Shown: positions 1,872-24,493 of the stretch, piece after piece
How the letters are laid out: every line of letters begins with the position of its first letter
How positions within the stretch are numbered: position 1 is the first letter of the stretch
IMG/VR virus record: IMGVR_UViG_3300049728_000063
Coordinates: 1-28,638 of that record
Length of the DNA: 28,638 nt
Source of the DNA: a virus
Reading direction: 5' to 3' (one strand)
Program-made: the position numbers and the translations under genes
Notes under the pieces: generated by a model
What the model was told of the DNA's origin: nothing
Seen by the model: only the letters and a program-made list of their open reading frames with translations
The model's database searches: none

Positions 1872-3965
1872 TTAGCGAAGTCGCAACTGATTTAACCTGA
1901 CAAAACTAGACGAGGAATTGCCTAATGAATTTAAAATAATTTGTAATTGTGTCCACTGGGTGTTTTGAAAATTTATATCAATATAACCAGATAATGCTGT
2001 GGTGCTTTCAACATTTGTTGTTCCACAAATTGCCCAAGCATCCGTTCCGTTTAAACGATAATTTATAACAACACTTTCTCCGTTCGCTAAAGGCGAAGCC
2101 AATTTATATTCAAGCTGTTGAAAAGTTTTCTTTGTAAGGACTGTGCCTGTTGGAATTAAATCAGTTTCAATTATCGCAGTCGTGCAAGGAACAGTATCGG
2201 TAAAGTCTATGCCGTAAGTCGGAGTGTTAATGTCTGAAACCCAACCTGCCCAATATTGAGGAGCAATAGCAGTTTGAACCATACTGTTGATTAAAACTGG
2301 AGCATAACCGTTATAAGTTCCGTAAGAGTTTTGATTTTCAAGTCGTAAAGCTAATCCCGTATCTTGTCCGATGTAAAAGTTTTGAGTGGGAATGAATGAC
2401 CATATACCTCCGCAGTTCCCTGCTTTCGTTGCTGTTTGGTCTAGGACTGAAAAATATACTCGTCCACGACAATACATTGACCCACCCCAAGAGAAGTAAG
2501 GTTCTATGTAAGAAGCGGGAGTGCCTGCGATACCAGCACAATAATCAGGCACTGTGGTTGCGAGTGAAGCTGAAGAGCCGTTAGTAAGATAAATATTTCC
2601 TTTATGCCCTGCAAAGACATACAACATATTATTTACTGTAATCATTCCGTGTGTATCGTTTTCTGGGAGGGGAATTAAATCACCAGGAAGAGGACTAATT
2701 TGGTCCCAAGGATAAAGAACATTTCCTGAACAACCAATAACAACAATATTTCCAAGTTCTGCCATACATTGAGCTGTTTCGTAAAAAGGCAGATTAAGTC
2801 GTTGCGGGGTGAAAGTCAACATTGTTCTTCCGCCCACTGATATAGGATAAAAAGTATTGAAAAACTGTCTACCAACCGCACCAGCACTCATATCTAATGC
2901 TCCACCAACAGTAGGTCCAGTAAAAACTTGGAAAGCTGTTGGTGAAGTAACTGAAGAAATTCCAATCCAATAAATAACTCCAGCACTTATAGCACTTGGA
3001 AGTGTTCCTTGAGTAAAAAATACGACTGGAACTCTAGCAGTTGAACCTGCTCCATAATTAGGATAAGACCCACCAATGACATCAGTAATACTAGAATTAC
3101 CAAGTCCACTCGCACCAGTATATTCACAATAAGATTGGATGTTTGAGTTACCAGTTATAAGTGATGTATTTGGAAAATAACTAGCAATAAATTGTCCGTC
3201 AGTCACATACATTTTTCCTTGATGCCCAACTAGAGAATAGTGCATACCTTGTCCTATTAGACCCAAATTTCCACTTGTGCCAGCAACAGTGCCAAGTCTT
3301 GATGTACTCATCCAGTAATCATTGTTTGTATTAGCATAAGTATTAAAAAAGAATATCCAACCATTCAGTACGGCTAAGCCGCTCGTACCTAGACCTGGAT
3401 TATATACATTAAACCATACCGGAGTATCAACTCCACTTAAGGTAGCTGTGTCGTGGCACCATAGAGAACCCAGTAAATCTAAAATATAATAACGATATTG
3501 TTTATTATTTGAAGCATCAGTATATATTTCAGTAGCAGATTGGAAAGGTGTTCCCATTGGAAAAGCGATTGTAAAGGTAGCAGTCCCAGCAGTTATGCCC
3601 GTTACTACCGTTGCAGTGGCTGGGTTACTTGGCACATTATTACCCGCATATAATTTACCAGTTGAGAGATAGTAATAATTTCCCGATAGACCAGTAGTTC
3701 CAGCGTTTGTGATAGTAATAACTTGTCCAACTAAAAGAGTAATTCCACTAACTGAAACAGTATTTGTGTTGACTTGCGTTAAAGTTCCCGTTGTTCCTGT
3801 TTGGGTTTGTTTGATACGATTAAAAGAACACATCGCTTCACCTGTTTCGGTAGAGATGTTTACATTTTGAAGATTAGCTAGTCCTTTGTGTAAACTTGGG
3901 GCGATTCCATTCTCGAAACCAGAGATTACAATATCCCCCGTTGATTTTTCAATGTTATAAGACAT
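1872..3965 (-). CDS. Large beta-rich tail/virion protein
   Basis: 697 aa, the largest protein in the window. It starts MSYNIEKSTGDIVISGFENG, continues SLHKGLANLQNVNIS, and is then dominated by short beta-strand-like repeats rich in Gly, Ser, Thr and aromatic residues, for example NMLYVFAGHKGNIYLTNG and GSMYCRGRVYFSVLDQ. This looks like a propeller-type structure, as in podovirus DNA-stabilisation and tail-hub proteins. That assignment is inference. Its first 11 bp overlap the end of the HNH gene upstream. A 22-codon stub carrying nearly the same N-terminus lies on the far side of that HNH gene, so this gene was probably split and given a new start. Confidence 0.55.
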   Translation of the reverse strand: MSYNIEKSTGDIVISGFENGIAPSLHKGLANLQNVNISTETGEAMCSFNRIKQTQTGTTGTLTQVNTNTVSVSGITLLVGQVITITNAGTTGLSGNYYYLSTGKLYAGNNVPSNPATATVVTGITAGTATFTIAFPMGTPFQSATEIYTDASNNKQYRYYILDLLGSLWCHDTATLSGVDTPVWFNVYNPGLGTSGLAVLNGWIFFFNTYANTNNDYWMSTSRLGTVAGTSGNLGLIGQGMHYSLVGHQGKMYVTDGQFIASYFPNTSLITGNSNIQSYCEYTGASGLGNSSITDVIGGSYPNYGAGSTARVPVVFFTQGTLPSAISAGVIYWIGISSVTSPTAFQVFTGPTVGGALDMSAGAVGRQFFNTFYPISVGGRTMLTFTPQRLNLPFYETAQCMAELGNIVVIGCSGNVLYPWDQISPLPGDLIPLPENDTHGMITVNNMLYVFAGHKGNIYLTNGSSASLATTVPDYCAGIAGTPASYIEPYFSWGGSMYCRGRVYFSVLDQTATKAGNCGGIWSFIPTQNFYIGQDTGLALRLENQNSYGTYNGYAPVLINSMVQTAIAPQYWAGWVSDINTPTYGIDFTDTVPCTTAIIETDLIPTGTVLTKKTFQQLEYKLASPLANGESVVINYRLNGTDAWAICGTTNVESTTALSGYIDINFQNTQWTQLQIILNSLGNSSSSFVRLNQLRLR

Positions 3966-4467
3966 TTTTTTTATATTTTAAATTACATCCATAATTATCT
4001 GTTTTCTTATGACAATTTATGCAAAGAGTCCGACCATTATCTATCGCAAATCTAAGTTCAGGGTATTCAGCGAATGATTTTATGTGGTCTGCATTTAGTT
4101 TATTTCCTTTATAACCACACCAAATACAAGTAAAATTATCACGAGTAAAAACTGCTGTTCGCCAAAGTTTATATTCAGTTGAATGTCTTATTAAATCATT
4201 CTGACTACTAACCCCACCTCTCCAGTTCGGAACATCTTTACCTTTCCAGTGATGAACAGGTGGTTTGTTACCTATTCTTTTTTGAGTATCACTCATTTTT
4301 TTCTTAGTCGCATCTGAATGTTTTAAAAGACCCTTTTTGCCTTTATTCCAAGGGACTCTCCCAACACAAAAGGTATTACCTTTCATCTGTGGAAAATCTC
4401 TCCCTTTATTCCAAGGTTTTCTACCTACGCATATTTTATTTCCTTTTTGAAATCTTGGTGATGGCAT
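3955..4467 (-). CDS. HNH homing endonuclease 1 (NUMOD3-like repeats)
   Basis: 170 aa. The N-terminal half holds two copies of a KPWNKG/VPWNKG motif (about residues 18-22 and 38-43), the short DNA-contacting repeats of NUMOD3-type homing enzymes. The C-terminal half is a zinc-supported HNH nuclease: Cys114 and Cys117, Asp127-His128, Asn144, Cys149, Cys152 and His153. It should nick or cut DNA at a specific virion-gene target and promote its own spread. Its last 11 bp overlap the start of the 697-aa tail gene. A truncated copy of that gene's N-terminus sits just upstream (4475-4543), which marks the insertion site. Nuclease identity is firm; homing is inferred from context. Confidence 0.88.
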   Translation of the reverse strand: MPSPRFQKGNKICVGRKPWNKGRDFPQMKGNTFCVGRVPWNKGKKGLLKHSDATKKKMSDTQKRIGNKPPVHHWKGKDVPNWRGGVSSQNDLIRHSTEYKLWRTAVFTRDNFTCIWCGYKGNKLNADHIKSFAEYPELRFAIDNGRTLCINCHKKTDNYGCNLKYKKNVL

Positions 4468-7337: not shown

Positions 7338-8012
7338 TTATTCTTTTGATACTGACAATAATTCCTGTAATATTGGAATCATTCGTTTCTCTTCTTCACG
7401 ACCTCTTGGGTGATGAAAGGCACAAAGTGTAATGCCGTTTGTTAATATATATCTTAATTCTGGGTATTCTATCCAGTTAAATATATGGTGTGATTCTAGG
7501 CGACCTTTACAATCATCACTTAATAATCTACATTTCCAATTATCTCTTCTTTTTGTTCCCAACATCCAACATCTATATTGGGTATCTAAATGCTTTTTTT
7601 CAGATTTTTTAACTTTTGTTCTATCTTCAATCCATCTACCATTTTTTTTACCAGACATATTCTTTCCATAATTAGGATGATTTCTACCGACGGGCAAACT
7701 GTCTTTTATATGTTTATTCCATTCAGGGGTATGTTTTCTGCCTGTTCTAGTAATACTCATTTTCTTTTTAGATTCCTCCGTATGATGTCTTCCTAACCAT
7801 AAAGTATTTCCCTTTTTTAATCCGTAAGTATTACCTAAACATTTTCCTTTTCTTGCAATACTTATTTTTCTTTTTTGCTCTTCAGGTAATGGAATACCTT
7901 TATTCCAAGCAATATAAGACATTTTTTTTCCTTTATTCCACGGAACTTTACCCATACGAGCTAAACTCTGTTTTTTCCTAGTTTCTTCAGGTGTAATCTG
8001 TCCTTTACGCAT
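7338..8012 (-). CDS. HNH homing endonuclease 2 (NUMOD3-like repeats)
   Basis: 224 aa, strongly basic. Residues 1-130 hold several short DNA-binding repeats: VPWNKG, IAWNKG, RKISIARKG, KKKMSITRTGRKH and WNKHIKDSL. The HNH core at about residues 172-205 is LESHHIFNW, then Asn192, then His200-His201; Cys161 and Cys168 could support it. The family cuts or nicks DNA and spreads by homing. It lies between a coiled-coil gene and a small virion gene, with 21 bp before and 2 bp after it. I found no convincing stub of the downstream gene upstream of it, unlike HNH 1. Confidence 0.87.
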   Translation of the reverse strand: MRKGQITPEETRKKQSLARMGKVPWNKGKKMSYIAWNKGIPLPEEQKRKISIARKGKCLGNTYGLKKGNTLWLGRHHTEESKKKMSITRTGRKHTPEWNKHIKDSLPVGRNHPNYGKNMSGKKNGRWIEDRTKVKKSEKKHLDTQYRCWMLGTKRRDNWKCRLLSDDCKGRLESHHIFNWIEYPELRYILTNGITLCAFHHPRGREEEKRMIPILQELLSVSKE

Positions 8013-10859: not shown

Positions 10860-11789
10860 TTATATTCCTGTTATGCCAGTAATTTTTCCGTTACGGAATG
10901 GAGCGGTGCACACAAGTTGCCCGCCCATAATCATAAAGCCATTGATAGCTCCCTGATTGTAAGCGTGAATCCACTTTGTCCAAGTAAATGCTTTTGTCGC
11001 ACCTGCTGGACTAAAGTTGTAGATATTGCCTTTGATGAGTTCAGTGCCAAGTTTGACTGGCTCACCTTCCCACCAATTAAGTCCATAGAACTCCAAGAAC
11101 TCGCTATTGAGTTCGTAGAATGTTCCAGTAACTACCTTCTTATCTCGGAAGATTTCTAATCCGTCCCAAATCATACCATCGGCTTTGAAACCTGCTCCAG
11201 CATCCATTTTGCGGAAATCGGAATAAGTATTGCGTTGAAAAGCCTGTAATAGTTGTTCAAAGTAAGCCCAAGTTTGGTAATCGGTCAAACAGATATCTGG
11301 TTTAATGCGTCCATCCGAAATATTGTTATTTACTTGACGAACGAGTAAGAGAGATAGTGTTGTGGAAGCGGTCTGATAATCGTTTAAGCCTGGATAGGTA
11401 GCACGTGAAAGTCCACCATAAGTGGAAGCTACTGACCCATTGTCTACTATATTACCAAGTCCAGCAGGAGCTTTTCCACCATAAGATGTTCCATTTCCTT
11501 GAAAGAAATTACCAACATCATCTGCGGCATCTTCTGAACGTGACTTCATAGTCACTTCCAAAAGATTAACTTTCTGCTCATTGGTTTTGTTAATTGATAA
11601 TTCTGAACCTGCTAATGCTACGTTAGTTGCTGTAAATGTTGGATAAAAAGTCATATTCACAGTCGTAGGATTTTGAGATGTAGGAAGTTGGTCAAATCCA
11701 TTGAACGCAACTGTAGAAACGCCTTTTTGATATTTAATACCAAAAAGCATTTGGCTACCATCCCATTTTTTTGTCTTGCCTAGAATCAT
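10860..11789 (-). CDS. Major capsid protein (HK97-like), N-terminus probably longer
   Basis: 309 aa from the first ATG. Long helix-then-strand layout: NEQKVNLLEVTMKSRSEDAADD (spine helix), SSLLLVRQ-type helix region, DICLTDYQTWAYFEQLL and GLEIFRDKKVVTGTFYELNS, as in HK97-fold capsid proteins. It sits after the scaffold gene and before beta-rich head proteins, the usual place. The frame stays open for 35 codons before the ATG (to 11894) and encodes clearly protein-like sequence, including NQYLAPFWIDQTLRDNAFFG. That stretch has no ATG, GTG or TTG; a CTG at 11868-11870 would give 336 aa. The true start is therefore probably upstream and unusual, or the start has been lost by a sequence error. 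Confidence 0.75.
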   Translation of the reverse strand: MILGKTKKWDGSQMLFGIKYQKGVSTVAFNGFDQLPTSQNPTTVNMTFYPTFTATNVALAGSELSINKTNEQKVNLLEVTMKSRSEDAADDVGNFFQGNGTSYGGKAPAGLGNIVDNGSVASTYGGLSRATYPGLNDYQTASTTLSLLLVRQVNNNISDGRIKPDICLTDYQTWAYFEQLLQAFQRNTYSDFRKMDAGAGFKADGMIWDGLEIFRDKKVVTGTFYELNSEFLEFYGLNWWEGEPVKLGTELIKGNIYNFSPAGATKAFTWTKWIHAYNQGAINGFMIMGGQLVCTAPFRNGKITGITGI

Positions 11790-15352: not shown

Positions 15353-15940
15353 TTAGTATTTAATTGTTTTGGTAAATTTTTTGACATTGCATTTTTTACA
15401 TAAAGGTTGGATATTTTCTATAAAATTACTACCGCCTCGTGATAATGGAATTATATGGTCTCTTGTTAGTTGTATTATTGGTTCGGCTTGATGACAACAA
15501 GGGCAAGTAAAACCATATTGTATTTTCAAAAGTTCCCATTCTCCGTCTGTGTATGAACCTACTGCATTTCTTACTCTATCTCGTCTTATTTTACCGTGTT
15601 CTAATTCGCTTACTCCCCCTTTCCACCTAGCATTTTCCGCTCCCATTCTTTTACCCATAAACCTTTCACTTTGTGCTTTCTTTTGTGCGTCTGTCCAAAG
15701 GTGGTGTATTTTCTTTGGTGTTCTTAATTTTGCTTTCCAACTTTCTGGCATTTTCTTTCCTTTTAATGGATTATGCAACACACCTTTTGTTCCCTTACTC
15801 CAACCTACTTGTCCTTTTATAAATGGCTTACCAAAACTATGGGGTCGTGAACACTTATAGCATAATCCTGTCTTTCCATAATAATTGCCTTTGTATCGTA
15901 GTGGGGTTAAACAATTTTTACACTTTACTTTTTCTTTCAT
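15353..15940 (-). CDS. HNH homing endonuclease 3 (Cys4 zinc type)
   Basis: 195 aa. The N-terminus has a zinc ribbon, Cys7-x2-Cys10 and Cys27-x2-Cys30, then a basic linker with GWSKG and ENARWKGG motifs typical of phage homing enzymes. The HNH core is classic: Cys146/Cys149, Asp161-His162 in TRDHIIPLSRGGSN, Asn176 and Cys181-x2-Cys184-Asn185. It abuts the portal start (2 bp gap). Directly upstream a six-codon frame, MDKDKR, ends inside this gene's start and resembles the portal start MNEDNF, possibly a second insertion scar. Endonuclease identity is firm. Confidence 0.87.
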   Translation of the reverse strand: MKEKVKCKNCLTPLRYKGNYYGKTGLCYKCSRPHSFGKPFIKGQVGWSKGTKGVLHNPLKGKKMPESWKAKLRTPKKIHHLWTDAQKKAQSERFMGKRMGAENARWKGGVSELEHGKIRRDRVRNAVGSYTDGEWELLKIQYGFTCPCCHQAEPIIQLTRDHIIPLSRGGSNFIENIQPLCKKCNVKKFTKTIKY

Positions 15941-17848: not shown

Positions 17849-19471
17849 TTAAAAATCATTATTATCACTCCCTGTTGAATAAAAAGACTTGAATTGTCTA
17901 GCTGGAATAGTGCCGTCTACGCTTGAACCTCTGACTACACCTTGTAAGAAGTTGTCCTTCTTTGAAATGATAGTAGCCAAATCTTCGCCAAATCTATCTA
18001 GGCCGACAAGAGCATACATATCAGCCATAAAAAAGTGGTCTGGTCCTTTACGTCGCCATTCCCACTTCCAGCCATACTGTGGGTCATTTTCCTCTCCAAC
18101 AAAAGTCTTAACACGATAGATATTCAAAGCGTGAGCAAAAAATGGTTTCCAGTCCTCATAAGTTCCATTGTAAACCATTCGCTTTTCATTTATTTGGTCT
18201 ACGGCTAATTGTATTACTCGGTTTCTATCTATCAAGACCTTGCCATATTCTTCATCTTCGCCCCAACGAATGAGTTGTTTGTTGCGAGTCTCTTTTACCG
18301 ACCAGATTAAGAATACTCGCCCTGGATATTTCTGTTGCAACTTTCTAACACCGATTAAGTCCCCACCTTGGTCAGCCATCAATATCCAATTCTTGTTATC
18401 GTGCAAGTGTTTGTCTATTTCATCATAAGGGTCATAGTTCGGGTCTTTCTTTTCTTGGGGGGACATACAATAACCATAATAGAAAGCACCTTGTTTGTTT
18501 CGTATCGTATAGTGAAGATTATATGAAGTGTCTAGTCCGATTATTGCTCTGCCCTCTTGTGTGTTTACATTATCCGATAAACAATTCTTTAATGCTCGCT
18601 CGCTCAATGCGTCATTCGGATTAACATAAGGCAAACCAGCCACGAAGTTATAAAAGTACTCAGGACTACCTCGTTTCTTTTCGGCTATGTAAGTTGCTTT
18701 GATATTAGGATTTAGCCAAAGTGGTATCCAATAGCCAGACCATTTGCCACTTGCTGTCTTGACCCATTCGCCCATTCGTCTTTCTTCATTCGTAATCTCG
18801 CCTTTGCATTTAGGACAGCGATAGGTTTCAGTTTTATAATCAACACAAGTTTCATCCAACGGATAAGTTTCTCCACAAGAGTGTTTTATATGCCATATTT
18901 TCTTATCACTCAAAGCCCAGAATCTATCAACACCAAAGTCGGGTATCGTAGGGTTAGAGAATAGCCATTTCCAACCATACTCTGAGTGCTGTAAACGTGA
19001 GTCATAAGTTTCAAGAATACTTTGTGGACTTTTATCAAACTCATCGCCAACTAGAATATCTAACGACAACATAATTGCTGATAAGTCAGTCTGTGAGCCA
19101 AGATAGTGAATGAAGTTCTCGCCTATCTGTTTTTGCGTAATAGAGTCTTTATCTTTCATCCAACCTTGAATGATAGGATTTTGTTGTGCCATTGGATTAA
19201 CCTTTGAGCCAACAAACTTTTGCACCATTTCTACTGTGGGTAGCACATATCCAACATTTAAGCGTCTGTTCTTGCAGAGCCAAATAGTCTTTAAAATAGC
19301 CATTGTGCTAAATCCTATCTGTCCTGCTTTCAAACAAACTAAATAAGGAGAAGTATCTCTATAAATATCAAATAAATATCTATGTGTAGTAAAATCTAAT
19401 GGCTTGCCATTTTCTGTTTTTATACCATTTTCTTGAATCCAGCTATGGATTGATACTTGGCTTAATAACAT
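17849..19471 (-). CDS. terL: Terminase large subunit (GpA-like packaging ATPase/nuclease)
   Basis: 540 aa from the ATG at 19471 (MLLSQVSIHSWIQENG); upstream in-frame ATGs at 19540 would overlap the 51-aa gene more and lack similarity to the family. The ATPase P-loop-like KAGQIGFST is at 48-56, and Walker B, ILVGDEFD, at 139-146. A zinc site follows (Cys199, Cys209, Cys219, Cys222) with GYWIP, a hallmark of the GpA group. The nuclease half has GLDTS (Asp315), LMADQGGD (Asp368) and GPDHFFMADMY near residue 500. It pumps DNA into the head through the portal and cuts genome units. Confidence 0.9.
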   Translation of the reverse strand: MLLSQVSIHSWIQENGIKTENGKPLDFTTHRYLFDIYRDTSPYLVCLKAGQIGFSTMAILKTIWLCKNRRLNVGYVLPTVEMVQKFVGSKVNPMAQQNPIIQGWMKDKDSITQKQIGENFIHYLGSQTDLSAIMLSLDILVGDEFDKSPQSILETYDSRLQHSEYGWKWLFSNPTIPDFGVDRFWALSDKKIWHIKHSCGETYPLDETCVDYKTETYRCPKCKGEITNEERRMGEWVKTASGKWSGYWIPLWLNPNIKATYIAEKKRGSPEYFYNFVAGLPYVNPNDALSERALKNCLSDNVNTQEGRAIIGLDTSYNLHYTIRNKQGAFYYGYCMSPQEKKDPNYDPYDEIDKHLHDNKNWILMADQGGDLIGVRKLQQKYPGRVFLIWSVKETRNKQLIRWGEDEEYGKVLIDRNRVIQLAVDQINEKRMVYNGTYEDWKPFFAHALNIYRVKTFVGEENDPQYGWKWEWRRKGPDHFFMADMYALVGLDRFGEDLATIISKKDNFLQGVVRGSSVDGTIPARQFKSFYSTGSDNNDF

Positions 19472-19598
19472 TTTTTCTATTATTCGGACACGATTGAGGC
19501 CATAATTTACACCAAATATCACAGCCTTTAAAAGCATCAAGATTAGAATTATACGTCCCTCTTTTTAAATTCTTAAAGCTATTTGTTTTCTTCTTCAT
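19443..19598 (-). CDS. Cys/Trp-rich microprotein between the terminase subunits
   Basis: 51 aa: a basic start MKKKTNSFKNLKRGTYNSNL, then FKGCDIWCKLWPQSCPNNRK and NVIKPSINP. Three Cys and two Trp within 13 residues are unusual for chance. Its ATG overlaps the small-terminase stop as ATGA, and its end overlaps the start of the large terminase by 29 bp, so it is well placed for coupled translation. It may be a small metal-binding or packaging-associated protein; no family is recognised. Confidence 0.5.
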   Translation of the reverse strand: MKKKTNSFKNLKRGTYNSNLDAFKGCDIWCKLWPQSCPNNRKNVIKPSINP

Positions 19599-21321: not shown

Positions 21322-21957
21322 TTATTTTTTATTTAATGCTTCTTTTAAAATATGTAAGCCGATTTCGGGGTAAACACAATTTCGTAATACTTGCCGTTTA
21401 TTTTTTAATTTTATATCAAGCCCATTCAATCCGTGTAAGTCAATTAGTTCTGGTATTTGTGCTTCCCGTATTATTGCTTTTCTTTGTGCTGATTTTGACG
21501 CTTGGCGATTCATTGTGCCTATCTGTGTATAGTTTACACTAATATCAGAAATTGGGAAGTTCGCCCAGAAATAATGTCGCCCGATAATTTGTGGCTCATA
21601 TATAGGTTTGTAATAACTTTTAACATTTTCAATAATATATTTTCCTTTAAAGAAATGTTTTAAGAAAATAATTTCCTGCCAAAGTTTCATATCGGGATAA
21701 CGGAATATACCTTGTCCTTTTAAGAAATGATTAGTCACGGAATGAGTGGGGCAAGGTGGGCTAGACCATATAAAATCATATTCTTGGTGGTGGTCTATAA
21801 GATACTGGTGAGCGTCCGCCACAATTACTTTATCTTCAGGAAATAGTTTTTGATATACATCAGCAATATCTTTAACATTTTCAACCGCAGTAACTTCGTG
21901 TCCTTTCCAAAGTTTACGATTTCCACCAATTCCTGCATAAAGATTAAGTATTTTCAT
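21322..21957 (-). CDS. Short C5-cytosine DNA methyltransferase
   Basis: 211 aa from the ATG at 21957, three bases after the GroEL stop; earlier in-frame codons overlap GroEL and are not family-like. Motif I is NLYAGIGG (5-12), motif IV is SSPPCPTHS with catalytic Cys69, and motif VI is IENV (109-112). Motif VIII-like GRHYFWANF and motif X-like QVLRNCVYPEIGLHILKEA close the domain. It would methylate C5 of cytosine using S-adenosylmethionine. At 211 aa it has little room for a target-recognition domain, so specificity may be loose. No restriction enzyme partner lies nearby; protection of viral DNA is the likely job. Confidence 0.82.
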   Translation of the reverse strand: MKILNLYAGIGGNRKLWKGHEVTAVENVKDIADVYQKLFPEDKVIVADAHQYLIDHHQEYDFIWSSPPCPTHSVTNHFLKGQGIFRYPDMKLWQEIIFLKHFFKGKYIIENVKSYYKPIYEPQIIGRHYFWANFPISDISVNYTQIGTMNRQASKSAQRKAIIREAQIPELIDLHGLNGLDIKLKNKRQVLRNCVYPEIGLHILKEALNKK

Positions 21958-21959
21958 AA

Positions 21960-23519
21960 TTAAAAGTTTCTCATTTGTCTTCCTAAAATCTCCAACTGCA
22001 AATCTTCCTGAGTTCTCTTTGGTAAATCTATAAAGGTGTTGGTGGTTAAAGCACGGCAAGCAATTCCTATTGCATTACGAATGGCATTTTTAGTTACTGC
22101 GGAAGCATCCACTATATCCTTTCCAAAGTCCACTATTTCACCGTTCCAATCTCCTTTTTCTACAACTTTTTTTCTCATATTATCAAGAATTTGAAGATGG
22201 GGAGCTAATAAAATATTATACATAACTTGCCCTACATCTGTTAAATTAAATTCTTTATCTCTGGGCATTTCGCTTGCTATTAAAGCTAGGCATCTTCCAC
22301 CACCTGAAACTACACCATACTCCAAAGCGAGTTTCGCCGAGTGGCAAGCATCAGTAGCTTTTAGGCGAAGCAATGACAACTCTCCTTCGTTCACAGCTCC
22401 TAGTTTAAGTTTGGCAGTTTTACTTGTAAGCCAAAATACTCGTCTTAAACTATCCTCATCGCCTTTTGCTTTCAAATCAGCTATATGTTCGGTTAAATCT
22501 ACACTTGGATTAAGCACGATTTCTTCCTTTTCTATCTCTATTCTATCACAAGTTCCTAAGTCCTCAAAGGTTAAATTCTTAAATGTTTTACCAGTAGCGT
22601 CTTCAATTATCGTAGCACCTGTGGCTTTGGCAAAGTCTTCAAATACCATATCTTTAAAGATTATTGGGGCTTTAACTACACAGATATTTAATACTTTTGC
22701 TTTGTGAGTAGCGATTAACTTTCGCACCATTTCGTTATCCATATCAGAAGCGAAAATGATTAAATCTTTTTTGCCCATTGCTACCATTTTTTCTATGAGA
22801 GGAGAAATGTCAGTTTCGTTGATTTTGTTTTTCGTGACTAGAATAGTCGGCTTCTCATAAATCGCTTTGACTTCTCGCCTACCTTCTTTTACCGCTTGCT
22901 CGTCGTGAACAAACGCTGGGGCAACGAAACCTGTATTTGTAAAGTGAACACCATTTGTGTAAATCACTTCATCATCAAATGTGCCAGAGCTTTCTATGTG
23001 GTTGATTATACATTCCTTGCCTTGTTTTTTATAGACATCACCTATTAGTTTACCTAGTCGGACACTATCACTCGCTGTTCGGGCTACAGCTTCCACTTCG
23101 TCTACTGTAATTGGTCTAGTTTGTTCGTCTATCTTTTGCTCTATGAAAGGTAAGAGTTCTGTTAGTTCTTTTTCCCAGTCTATGTTTTTATCTTGGCAGT
23201 TTTGTATACCTTGCAATATTTCATCAGTTAAGATACACATAGTCGTTCTGCCGTCTTTGCTACGCTTGTTCATTGAGTCGGTAGCGTCTTTCATCATATC
23301 TACGGCTAGACTTTCTAGGGGGTCTTCACATTTAATGGCTTGGATTATAGAATATGCATCTTTTGTTTGCTCGTAAAAAGGATAAAACTCCCTTTTAATA
23401 ATTGCATTACGTCCTCTACCGCCTAGAGTCCCCTCCACTGCGAGCCGACATATATGGATTCCAGTCCCGATACCCCACGAAGCATTATTTAATATATTGG
23501 TTTTTGTTGTGTTAATCAT
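21960..23519 (-). CDS. groEL: Group I chaperonin GroEL/Cpn60, phage-encoded
   Basis: 519 aa, full length apart from the GGM tail. The equatorial domain has TLGGRGRN (31-38), Asp54 in TKD, and KDGRTT (88-93, replacing GDGTTT) with Asp89; the third ATPase aspartate is Asp390 in TDACHSAK, followed by GVVSGGG (402-408). The apical domain aligns along GVHFTNTGFVAPAF, then VVKAPIIFKDMVFEDFAKATG and FEDLGTCDRIEI. Conserved C-terminal signature TNTFIDLPKR is present. All three ATP-hydrolysis aspartates remain, so activity is plausible. The gene follows a GroES gene with one small gene between. It probably folds virion proteins such as capsid or tail proteins (inference). Confidence 0.93.
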   Translation of the reverse strand: MINTTKTNILNNASWGIGTGIHICRLAVEGTLGGRGRNAIIKREFYPFYEQTKDAYSIIQAIKCEDPLESLAVDMMKDATDSMNKRSKDGRTTMCILTDEILQGIQNCQDKNIDWEKELTELLPFIEQKIDEQTRPITVDEVEAVARTASDSVRLGKLIGDVYKKQGKECIINHIESSGTFDDEVIYTNGVHFTNTGFVAPAFVHDEQAVKEGRREVKAIYEKPTILVTKNKINETDISPLIEKMVAMGKKDLIIFASDMDNEMVRKLIATHKAKVLNICVVKAPIIFKDMVFEDFAKATGATIIEDATGKTFKNLTFEDLGTCDRIEIEKEEIVLNPSVDLTEHIADLKAKGDEDSLRRVFWLTSKTAKLKLGAVNEGELSLLRLKATDACHSAKLALEYGVVSGGGRCLALIASEMPRDKEFNLTDVGQVMYNILLAPHLQILDNMRKKVVEKGDWNGEIVDFGKDIVDASAVTKNAIRNAIGIACRALTTNTFIDLPKRTQEDLQLEILGRQMRNF

Positions 23520-23788
23520 TGTTTTCTAAAATTAGGGTATTCACGAAAGAATAAAGTGTGTAATGGAAATAGTGCGTTTCGGATGTGATGTGCAAGGTAG
23601 ATATTATTTTCTGTCGTTCCATTTATGACCTTGAAGTAAACTTGCTTGCCACATATTTCACAGGTTTCTTGCACATAATCGCTGTCTTGACCTGTAATTT
23701 CAAATCTATGGAAATAACTATTCTTGCAGTTGGACTGTTCCCAAGAGAAAGTCGGAATCTTTGTGGATAAAGTGGACTTTTTCGCCAT
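23516..23788 (-). CDS. Zinc-type small protein overlapping groES
   Basis: 90 aa from the only ATG, at 23788. The first 24 codons run through the 3' end of groES in another frame (71 bp overlap); the conserved-looking part starts at about CKNSYFHRFEITG, right where groES ends. CEICGKQVYFKVING is a CxxC knuckle, and NNIYLAHHIRNALFPLHTLF a helix. Its stop overlaps the GroEL start. Such HRFEI...CxxCG proteins occur in phages; role unknown. The true start may be a non-ATG codon nearer the groES stop. Confidence 0.5.
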   Translation of the reverse strand: MAKKSTLSTKIPTFSWEQSNCKNSYFHRFEITGQDSDYVQETCEICGKQVYFKVINGTTENNIYLAHHIRNALFPLHTLFFREYPNFRKQ

Positions 23789-23984
23789 TTATTTCTGGGG
23801 ATTTTAAGCCCCACATTTCGTAAATAATAGTATCACCGACCTTTATCACACCTTCTTGTTCTACATTTGAGCCAATAGCTACAACTTCACCATACAGACA
23901 TAAACTTTTATTGTCCGAAACAAGTATTTGTTTTTTTTCGGCAGGTTTAACGATTAGTTGGTTTGGAAATGGTTTAATTTTCAT
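23718..23984 (-). CDS. groES: GroES co-chaperonin, phage-encoded
   Basis: 88 aa, against about 97 in E. coli. It aligns through KIKPFPNQLIVKP, then GEVVAIGSNVEQEGVIKVGD, TIIYEMWGLKSPEINGEKV and HKDSDFLLGTV. The stretch between LIVK and GEVVA, which holds the GroEL-binding mobile loop, is 18 residues instead of 24; it has QILV in place of the GGIVL motif. It caps the GroEL ring during folding. Whether it serves the viral GroEL, the host one, or both cannot be told. It overlaps the 77-aa gene upstream by 11 bp. Confidence 0.9.
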   Translation of the reverse strand: MKIKPFPNQLIVKPAEKKQILVSDNKSLCLYGEVVAIGSNVEQEGVIKVGDTIIYEMWGLKSPEINGEKVHFIHKDSDFLLGTVQLQE

Positions 23985-24207
23985 CTTTTAATGCCTCTTC
24001 AAGAGGGTCTACTATTACTCTTTTAATAATAATCGCTTGAGGCTTATCTGTGTATTGATAACTTGTTCTCGATAATGGGTGAAATGAGGATAAATAATCT
24101 TCGTCCTTTTCTTCAAGTTCTCTTTGTTTCGCTTTTTTTACCATTTCCTGCAAGAAAGAACTTTCACTTAAAACCAACAAATTACGCAGGCGTTGAATCA
24201 GTGTCAT
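23974..24207 (-). CDS. Small helical protein upstream of groES
   Basis: 77 aa from the ATG at 24207 (MTLIQRLRNLLVLSESS); a TTG at 24222 would add five residues. The first half is an amphipathic helix with many Leu, the second half is acidic and ends VDPLEEALKDEN. It overlaps the 103-aa gene by 26 bp and groES by 11 bp, so it is made with them. No family recognised. Confidence 0.5.
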   Translation of the reverse strand: MTLIQRLRNLLVLSESSFLQEMVKKAKQRELEEKDEDYLSSFHPLSRTSYQYTDKPQAIIIKRVIVDPLEEALKDEN

Positions 24208-24493
24208 TTGGTTGTGGGACAAAAGGACTAATAGTTGGCTCGGCTTTTACATCTGTGATTTTAGGTGCTTCTGGTTCGCTTGTATCAGGAATAGCTACTT
24301 TCTTTTGTAAGATAATAGTTGGCTCGTCTGCGAATACATTTTTTACACTTCCGTCTTCCATTTTAATACCTACTGGGGTTTTAATTATGTTTATTACTAG
24401 ATTAAGTGAAAGTTTATCTAGTAATTCTTTTAGACCATCTTTAAATGCTTGTTGGTCTGTCACACTTGCATCTTGCAATGAAAATTTATCCAT
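24182..24493 (-). CDS. Hypothetical 103-aa protein, first gene after promoter P2
   Basis: 103 aa, acidic. The N-terminal half is helical (FKDGLKELLDKLSLNLVINI), followed by a beta pair (IKTPVGIKMEDGSVKNVFAD) and a Pro/Glu/Thr-rich tail (IPDTSEPEAPKITDVKAEPT) that is likely disordered. It is the first gene of the operon that contains the chaperonins. No motif is recognised. Confidence 0.5.
   Translation of the reverse strand: MDKFSLQDASVTDQQAFKDGLKELLDKLSLNLVINIIKTPVGIKMEDGSVKNVFADEPTIILQKKVAIPDTSEPEAPKITDVKAEPTISPFVPQPNDTDSTPA

Follow-up and report, generated by a model that had tools for sequence, protein, structure and literature searches.

The window, the whole 28,638-base stretch analysed here, is an IMG/VR virus record in which every substantial gene lies on the minus strand. 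It encodes a GroEL and a GroES, with genes for the terminase large subunit (TerL), the portal and the major capsid protein (MCP) downstream of them on the same strand, in line with the original prediction that the chaperonin genes share an operon with packaging genes. The coordinates it gave for the pair were right, but it missed a gene lying between GroES and GroEL, here called ZnR. The features discussed below are these:

24182-24493, minus strand: 103-aa ORF that opens the conserved gene block; the version in L011 (the same contig as L002) is 60% identical
23974-24222, minus strand: small conserved gene just upstream of GroES, with an RLRNLLVLS motif, overlapping the GroES start
23718-23984, minus strand: GroES (Cpn10 co-chaperonin), 88 aa; PF00166, phrog_3188, AF2 model
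23892-23945, minus strand: mobile loop of GroES (residues 14-31, PAEKKQILVSDNKSLCLY), 18 residues long where the E. coli loop has 24
23516-23788, minus strand: ZnR, about 80 aa, encoded between the two chaperonin genes and conserved over 23516-23728; its ORF overlaps GroES and its true start is uncertain
21960-23519, minus strand: GroEL (group I chaperonin), 519 aa; PF00118, AF2 model, structural matches
23241-23258, minus strand: KDGRTT nucleotide-binding motif of GroEL (GDGTTT in E. coli; T89 replaced by R)
22098-22349, minus strand: hypervariable cassette in the C-terminal equatorial part of GroEL (residues about 391-474)
17849-19540, minus strand: TerL; phrog_675 (266 bits), PF05876
13503-15350, minus strand: portal protein; phrog_156
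10860-11789, minus strand: MCP; phrog_9953

ORFs resembling the small gene at 23974-24222 also stand ahead of GroES in relatives. Elsewhere in the window, HNH or homing endonuclease genes are scattered amid the structural genes (3955-4467, 7338-8012 and 15353-15940), and the protein at 47-1222 has an SU10-type adaptor domain (PF24175), which suggests a head-tail connector. Immediately after GroEL lies a C5-cytosine methyltransferase-like gene (21322-22059) whose real start probably lies near 21957 (MKILNLYAGIGG), which would make the protein about 211 aa long; BLAST matches to it in close relatives are limited to the end that overlaps GroEL.

The window belongs to a lineage of uncultivated tailed phages of about 40 kb, known from metagenome contigs alone. 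Closely related GroELs were found on four contigs (L002-L005), and with MCP as the marker viral contigs yielded first 28 and then at least 80 relatives. All 23 lineage phage records searched (the 21 of at least 35 kb and two shorter ones) contain a chaperonin match. A lineage profile recovers GroES in 21/21 records of at least 35 kb, and a similar profile in each of the 30 members whose contig extends upstream of GroEL; the Pfam Cpn10 model fails on many of these proteins, and the window GroES as sole query finds few relatives, a profile (A4) being required. The order GroES-ZnR-GroEL-TerL-portal-MCP, on one strand, recurs in all 33 MCP-bearing loci with GroEL, scored where the genes are present, and in a few members an HNH gene or another small one lies between GroES and GroEL; one relative, G015 (L079), has an HNH-like gene between ZnR and GroEL. 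A search by GroEL or MCP for close lineage members among 50,697 phage records returned none, as did a GroEL scan (A1) of bacterial genomes. The MCP scan of genomes recovered two MAG contigs only, L090 (CAIWDQ010000567.1) and L091 (CAIYET010000064.1), the sources being an uncultured bacterium and a Hydrogenedentes bacterium; these are probably phage contigs binned into MAGs and constitute weak host evidence. One 42.3-kb contig, G036, carries two GroEL copies, one at each end (L188, 3693-5219; L189, 1-1041), which are about 82% identical in protein and reflect either duplication or mixed assembly.

The original prediction had proposed a profile search of both proteins as a check, and both score above the curated Pfam cut-offs: GroEL reaches 76.3 bits against PF00118 (cut-off 34.3) and 200 bits against phrog_5725 (chaperonin GroEL), while GroES reaches 27.4 bits against PF00166 (cut-off 21.1) and also matches phrog_3188 (co-chaperonin GroES). 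The single-chain GroEL model (pLDDT 86.5) has the three-domain Cpn60 fold, with Z of 37-38 to Cpn60 chains, and its best structural matches are chains bound to GroES (rmsd 3.4-3.7 by VIA-align, versus about 11 Å to apo GroEL), a resemblance to be read with the caution that AF2 may pick the open, GroES-bound state without biological meaning. Alignment to E. coli confirms the three ATPase aspartates reported for this 519-residue protein: Asp54, Asp89 and Asp390 correspond to D52, D87 and D398, and are kept in 32/32, 29/32 and 32/32 members. Elsewhere in the ATP site K51 is replaced by N in 28/32 members, and the position held by arginine in KDGRTT (E. coli T89) varies, with R in 18, S in 13 and T in 1 of the 32 relatives; this residue is not fixed. 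The motif is located in the ATP pocket, away from the lid site, and the proposed co-adaptation of KDGRTT with the GroES loop does not hold up: the loop is short in 30/30 members, arginine is present in just 18/32, and the serine-bearing members have the same type of loop. At the lid site itself, most members have a polar residue at L234, and V264 varies; mean apical-site hydrophobicity is lower across the lineage, although not in the window's own protein.

The inter-ring surface is altered too. R452 is present in 34/34 bacterial GroELs versus 3/32 lineage members, E/D461 in 34/34 versus 14/32, and the segment 457-491 spans 33 residues in bacteria versus a mean of 21 in the lineage. At K105, E434, R452, E461, S463 and V464 the window has N, a gap, L, K, V and E. 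The canonical bacterial contacts are thus absent in the window and eroded or deleted in most members, although they are not demanded of every group I chaperonin, mtHsp60 being without some of them. The GroEL core evolves under dN/dS of about 0.02-0.09.

GroES keeps the Cpn10 fold in its AF2 model (pLDDT 85.6; Foldseek TM about 0.7 to Cpn10), with a dN/dS of 0.19. The short, altered mobile loop described for this 88-residue protein is borne out: at 18 residues in the window and 15-18 in all 30 members, it falls below the canonical Cpn10 length of 24 seen in E. coli, in Acinetobacter and in elemo, immuto, Calle and ctfjg026, all 30 members being about 6 residues shorter than E. coli. The loop nevertheless retains its hydrophobic tripeptide, with QILV at the position of E. 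coli GGIVL and ILV at that of IVL, and a hydrophobic pair or triplet occurs in most members. The roof segment comprises 9 residues in the window and usually 6 in the lineage, against 15 in E. coli, and the roof hairpin is missing in nearly all members. ZnR, found in 20/20 lineage genomes versus 0/9 other GroEL-bearing phages, has a dN/dS of 0.10 and would be expected to bind zinc, because a C, an H and a CxxC are invariant in it and a second H nearly so.

Pairwise divergence across 33 common genomes links the chaperonin to the head genes. GroEL tracks portal (r=0.87) and MCP (r=0.81) as tightly as MCP and portal track each other (r=0.84), and on smaller sets GroES follows both GroEL (r=0.81) and MCP (r=0.79). 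This argues that GroEL and GroES form an old, vertically kept module with no recent capture. A module devoted to folding head proteins would be expected to behave in this way. Physical linkage alone appears insufficient to explain the pattern, as it would predict that TerL should follow too, and MCP-TerL divergence correlates at only r=0.36 although TerL sits between GroEL and portal/MCP; mixing of distinct TerL types may weaken this contrast. Several further genes, like TerL, follow MCP less closely.

What would such a pair do? We favor, as the likely reading, a functional, phage-private group I chaperonin system that is itself a core, vertically inherited element of the head-morphogenesis region, with support at the sequence level from the intactness of both genes, the retained catalytic residues, purifying selection, lineage-wide presence and fixed order. 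GroEL, with a presumed folding activity, would capture unfolded phage proteins; ATP binding would bring in the phage's own short-loop GroES, acting on the phage GroEL and not on that of the host; and the client, most likely portal and/or MCP, would fold inside the cage. Head proteins are the candidate clients because GroEL co-diverges with portal and MCP, although that co-divergence may reflect linkage and shared ancestry and not client choice. The cycle might also run independently of the canonical double ring, a step we hold less surely than the others and propose on two grounds: the erosion of the inter-ring contacts, and the short loop, whose binding may be weak enough for release to occur with no second ring to signal it. 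The private folding machine of the original prediction probably stands, with an evolution that follows the head genes, but not the coupling between KDGRTT and the loop.

Two other functions deserve consideration. In one, GroES would be a gp31-like lid for host GroEL and the phage GroEL would work alone, as in phage EL, making two separate machines. There are precedents, in that T4 gp31 and RB49 CocO act on host GroEL (PMC6318259), the chaperonins of EL, OBP and AR9 need no co-chaperonin (PMC9598537), and the lineage GroES is roofless, as is gp31. We nonetheless judge this unlikely, given that GroES lies near GroEL in 30/30 members with upstream sequence, that GroES and GroEL distances correlate (r=0.81), that the lineage loop is shorter where that of gp31 is longer, and that the GroEL model resembles GroES-bound Cpn60. 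In the other, the chaperonin would mainly serve a different role, such as folding of tail or replication proteins or anti-defence, and its linkage to head genes would be positional; SRILMA GroEL does lie between tail sheath and tail tube genes, Calle and immuto GroEL lie near DNA polymerase genes, and the EL chaperonin acts on the endolysin (PMC9598537). The tight co-divergence of GroEL with portal and MCP, which TerL and several other genes do not share to the same degree, makes this improbable and favors the head-linked private chaperonin.

Within GroEL, one segment has a history of its own. Among five close relatives the middle of the protein is mostly 96-100% identical, apart from segments of L004 and L005, whereas the cassette, about 250 bp of the C-terminal equatorial domain, is nearly unalignable; the DNA of these genomes is otherwise mostly about 80-90% identical. 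The cassette boundaries recur at about the same places (22,348-22,381 to 22,046-22,048). In the GroEL core synonymous divergence is 0.43-0.75, whereas in the cassette it exceeds 2 or is saturated, a gap which argues that the history of the cassette goes back further than that of its flanks, as a result of recombination and not mere relaxed selection. The window cassette scores better against the distant members L107 and L098 than against its sisters. In bacteria cassette identity tracks core identity (mean 0.47 to 0.83), whereas in the lineage mean cassette identity stays at 0.24-0.40 whatever the core identity, the L047-L050 pair (0.93) excepted. The inter-ring face falls within the cassette, as does part of the ATP pocket, and the motifs of that pocket (GGG, D495) are kept. 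Could this be an assembly chimera or an alignment artefact? The data are wholly metagenome contigs, and G036 has two differing GroEL copies at its ends, but five contigs from different metagenomes each have their own cassette in an open frame with both flanks kept, the pocket motifs survive within the cassettes, and cassette identity is flat across the whole lineage, so we consider an artefact very unlikely.

The original prediction of a virus-encoded pair had named recent capture from a host as what would count against it, and the phylogeny favors the pair. In a tree that sets the lineage among 34 bacterial GroELs and 17 from other phages, it is monophyletic (support 1.0) on a long stem, and the nearest bacterial and phage sequences are about 28% identical to the window GroEL; together these lead us to reject recent whole-operon capture. 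That the pair is ordinary cargo captured from a host groESL operon is thus extremely improbable: the phage GroELs of DAC19, immuto, SRILMA and LR756501 do nest among bacterial ones, but the lineage stands apart at about 28% identity to anything known, with a chaperonin in every large relative and an extra gene inside the pair.

The phage-private chaperonin might, more specifically, be a naturally evolved single-ring, GroES-dependent one in which the short-loop lid replaces the trans-ring release signal, ZnR is a zinc-binding third component, and the equatorial cassette is swapped again and again by recombination, perhaps blocking the mixing of rings with those of co-infecting phages or the host, or escaping recognition. 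We raise this fuller reading tentatively and think it rather unlikely. Single-ring operation is possible, the short loop and the eroded ring interface together making such a cycle plausible: single-ring GroEL becomes functional once its interaction with GroES is weakened, and mtHsp60 is without comparable inter-ring salt bridges (PMC5575113). In contrast, the chaperonin of phage EL still assembles into double rings although it is about 22% identical to GroEL (PMC7185714).

Those phage chaperonins that have been examined in detail are of two kinds, lids that act on host GroEL and GroELs of giant phages that have no lid. A small-phage lineage whose core includes a complete, much-altered pair tied to the head genes would reveal how much of GroEL-GroES can be lost before it stops working and, if our reading is true, whether natural chaperonins can make do with a weakened lid in place of the second ring, and whether the need to fold capsid proteins drives phages to keep chaperonins. 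If confirmed, the swapped equatorial cassette would be an unexpected type of variation in a chaperonin.

A GroEL-GroES pair in a phage is already on record, and what is new here is its setting. The original prediction that carrying both halves is much rarer was overstated: annotated pairs exist in elemo and immuto, both Flavobacterium phages, in Cellulophaga phage Calle and in the uncultured podovirus ctfjg026, some phages have been described as possessing both proteins (PMC7185714), chaperonins of marine phages and archaeal viruses have been described (PMC5332604), and those of soil viruses are expressed (PMC8390657). The lineage pair is set apart by its short loop, lost ring-ring interface, ZnR and swappable segment, and may work differently from every chaperonin studied so far. 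Elemo, immuto, Calle and ctfjg026 are, like the lineage, tailed phages with GroEL and GroES adjacent or close, but their GroES loop has 24 residues, they are without a ZnR match, their GroELs are about 26-27% identical, and their genomes are larger (60-160 kb).

Closer in genome size, at about 39 kb, are Manatee Spring phage cthkR962 (MW202566.1) and TM7 phage DolZOral124_53_65 (MG269973.1), which have MCP relatives 28-29% identical and, as in the lineage, a GroEL with an adjacent small upstream ORF; cthkR962 shares the order GroES-like, GroEL, TerL, portal, MCP-like. Unlike the lineage, both are without a ZnR match and have GroELs that fall outside it in the tree. The TM7 phage, reported from a Saccharibacteria (TM7) host, encodes a Cpn60 (L015, 14894-16625) and a 100-aa ORF just upstream of it that, on examination, is not recognisable as GroES; its capsid protein is a distant relative of the window's MCP. 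This phage hints at a wider group of chaperonin phages of about 39 kb.

T4 gp31, which serves capsid folding in T4, resembles the lineage GroES in being a phage co-chaperonin without roof loops, but its partner is host GroEL and its loop is longer (22 versus 16 residues, PMC6318259), whereas the lineage has a short loop and encodes its own GroEL. EL, OBP and AR9 likewise have divergent phage GroELs, for which single rings have been reported, but these are giant phages whose chaperonins need no co-chaperonin, whereas the lineage always has GroES, which is present in every one of the 30 members sequenced upstream of GroEL. A functional parallel to the proposed cycle may be human mitochondrial Hsp60-Hsp10 and engineered single-ring GroEL, which combine lost inter-ring salt bridges with a weaker lid (PMC5575113), as we propose for the lineage; they share no recent descent with it, and its own single ring is a prediction.
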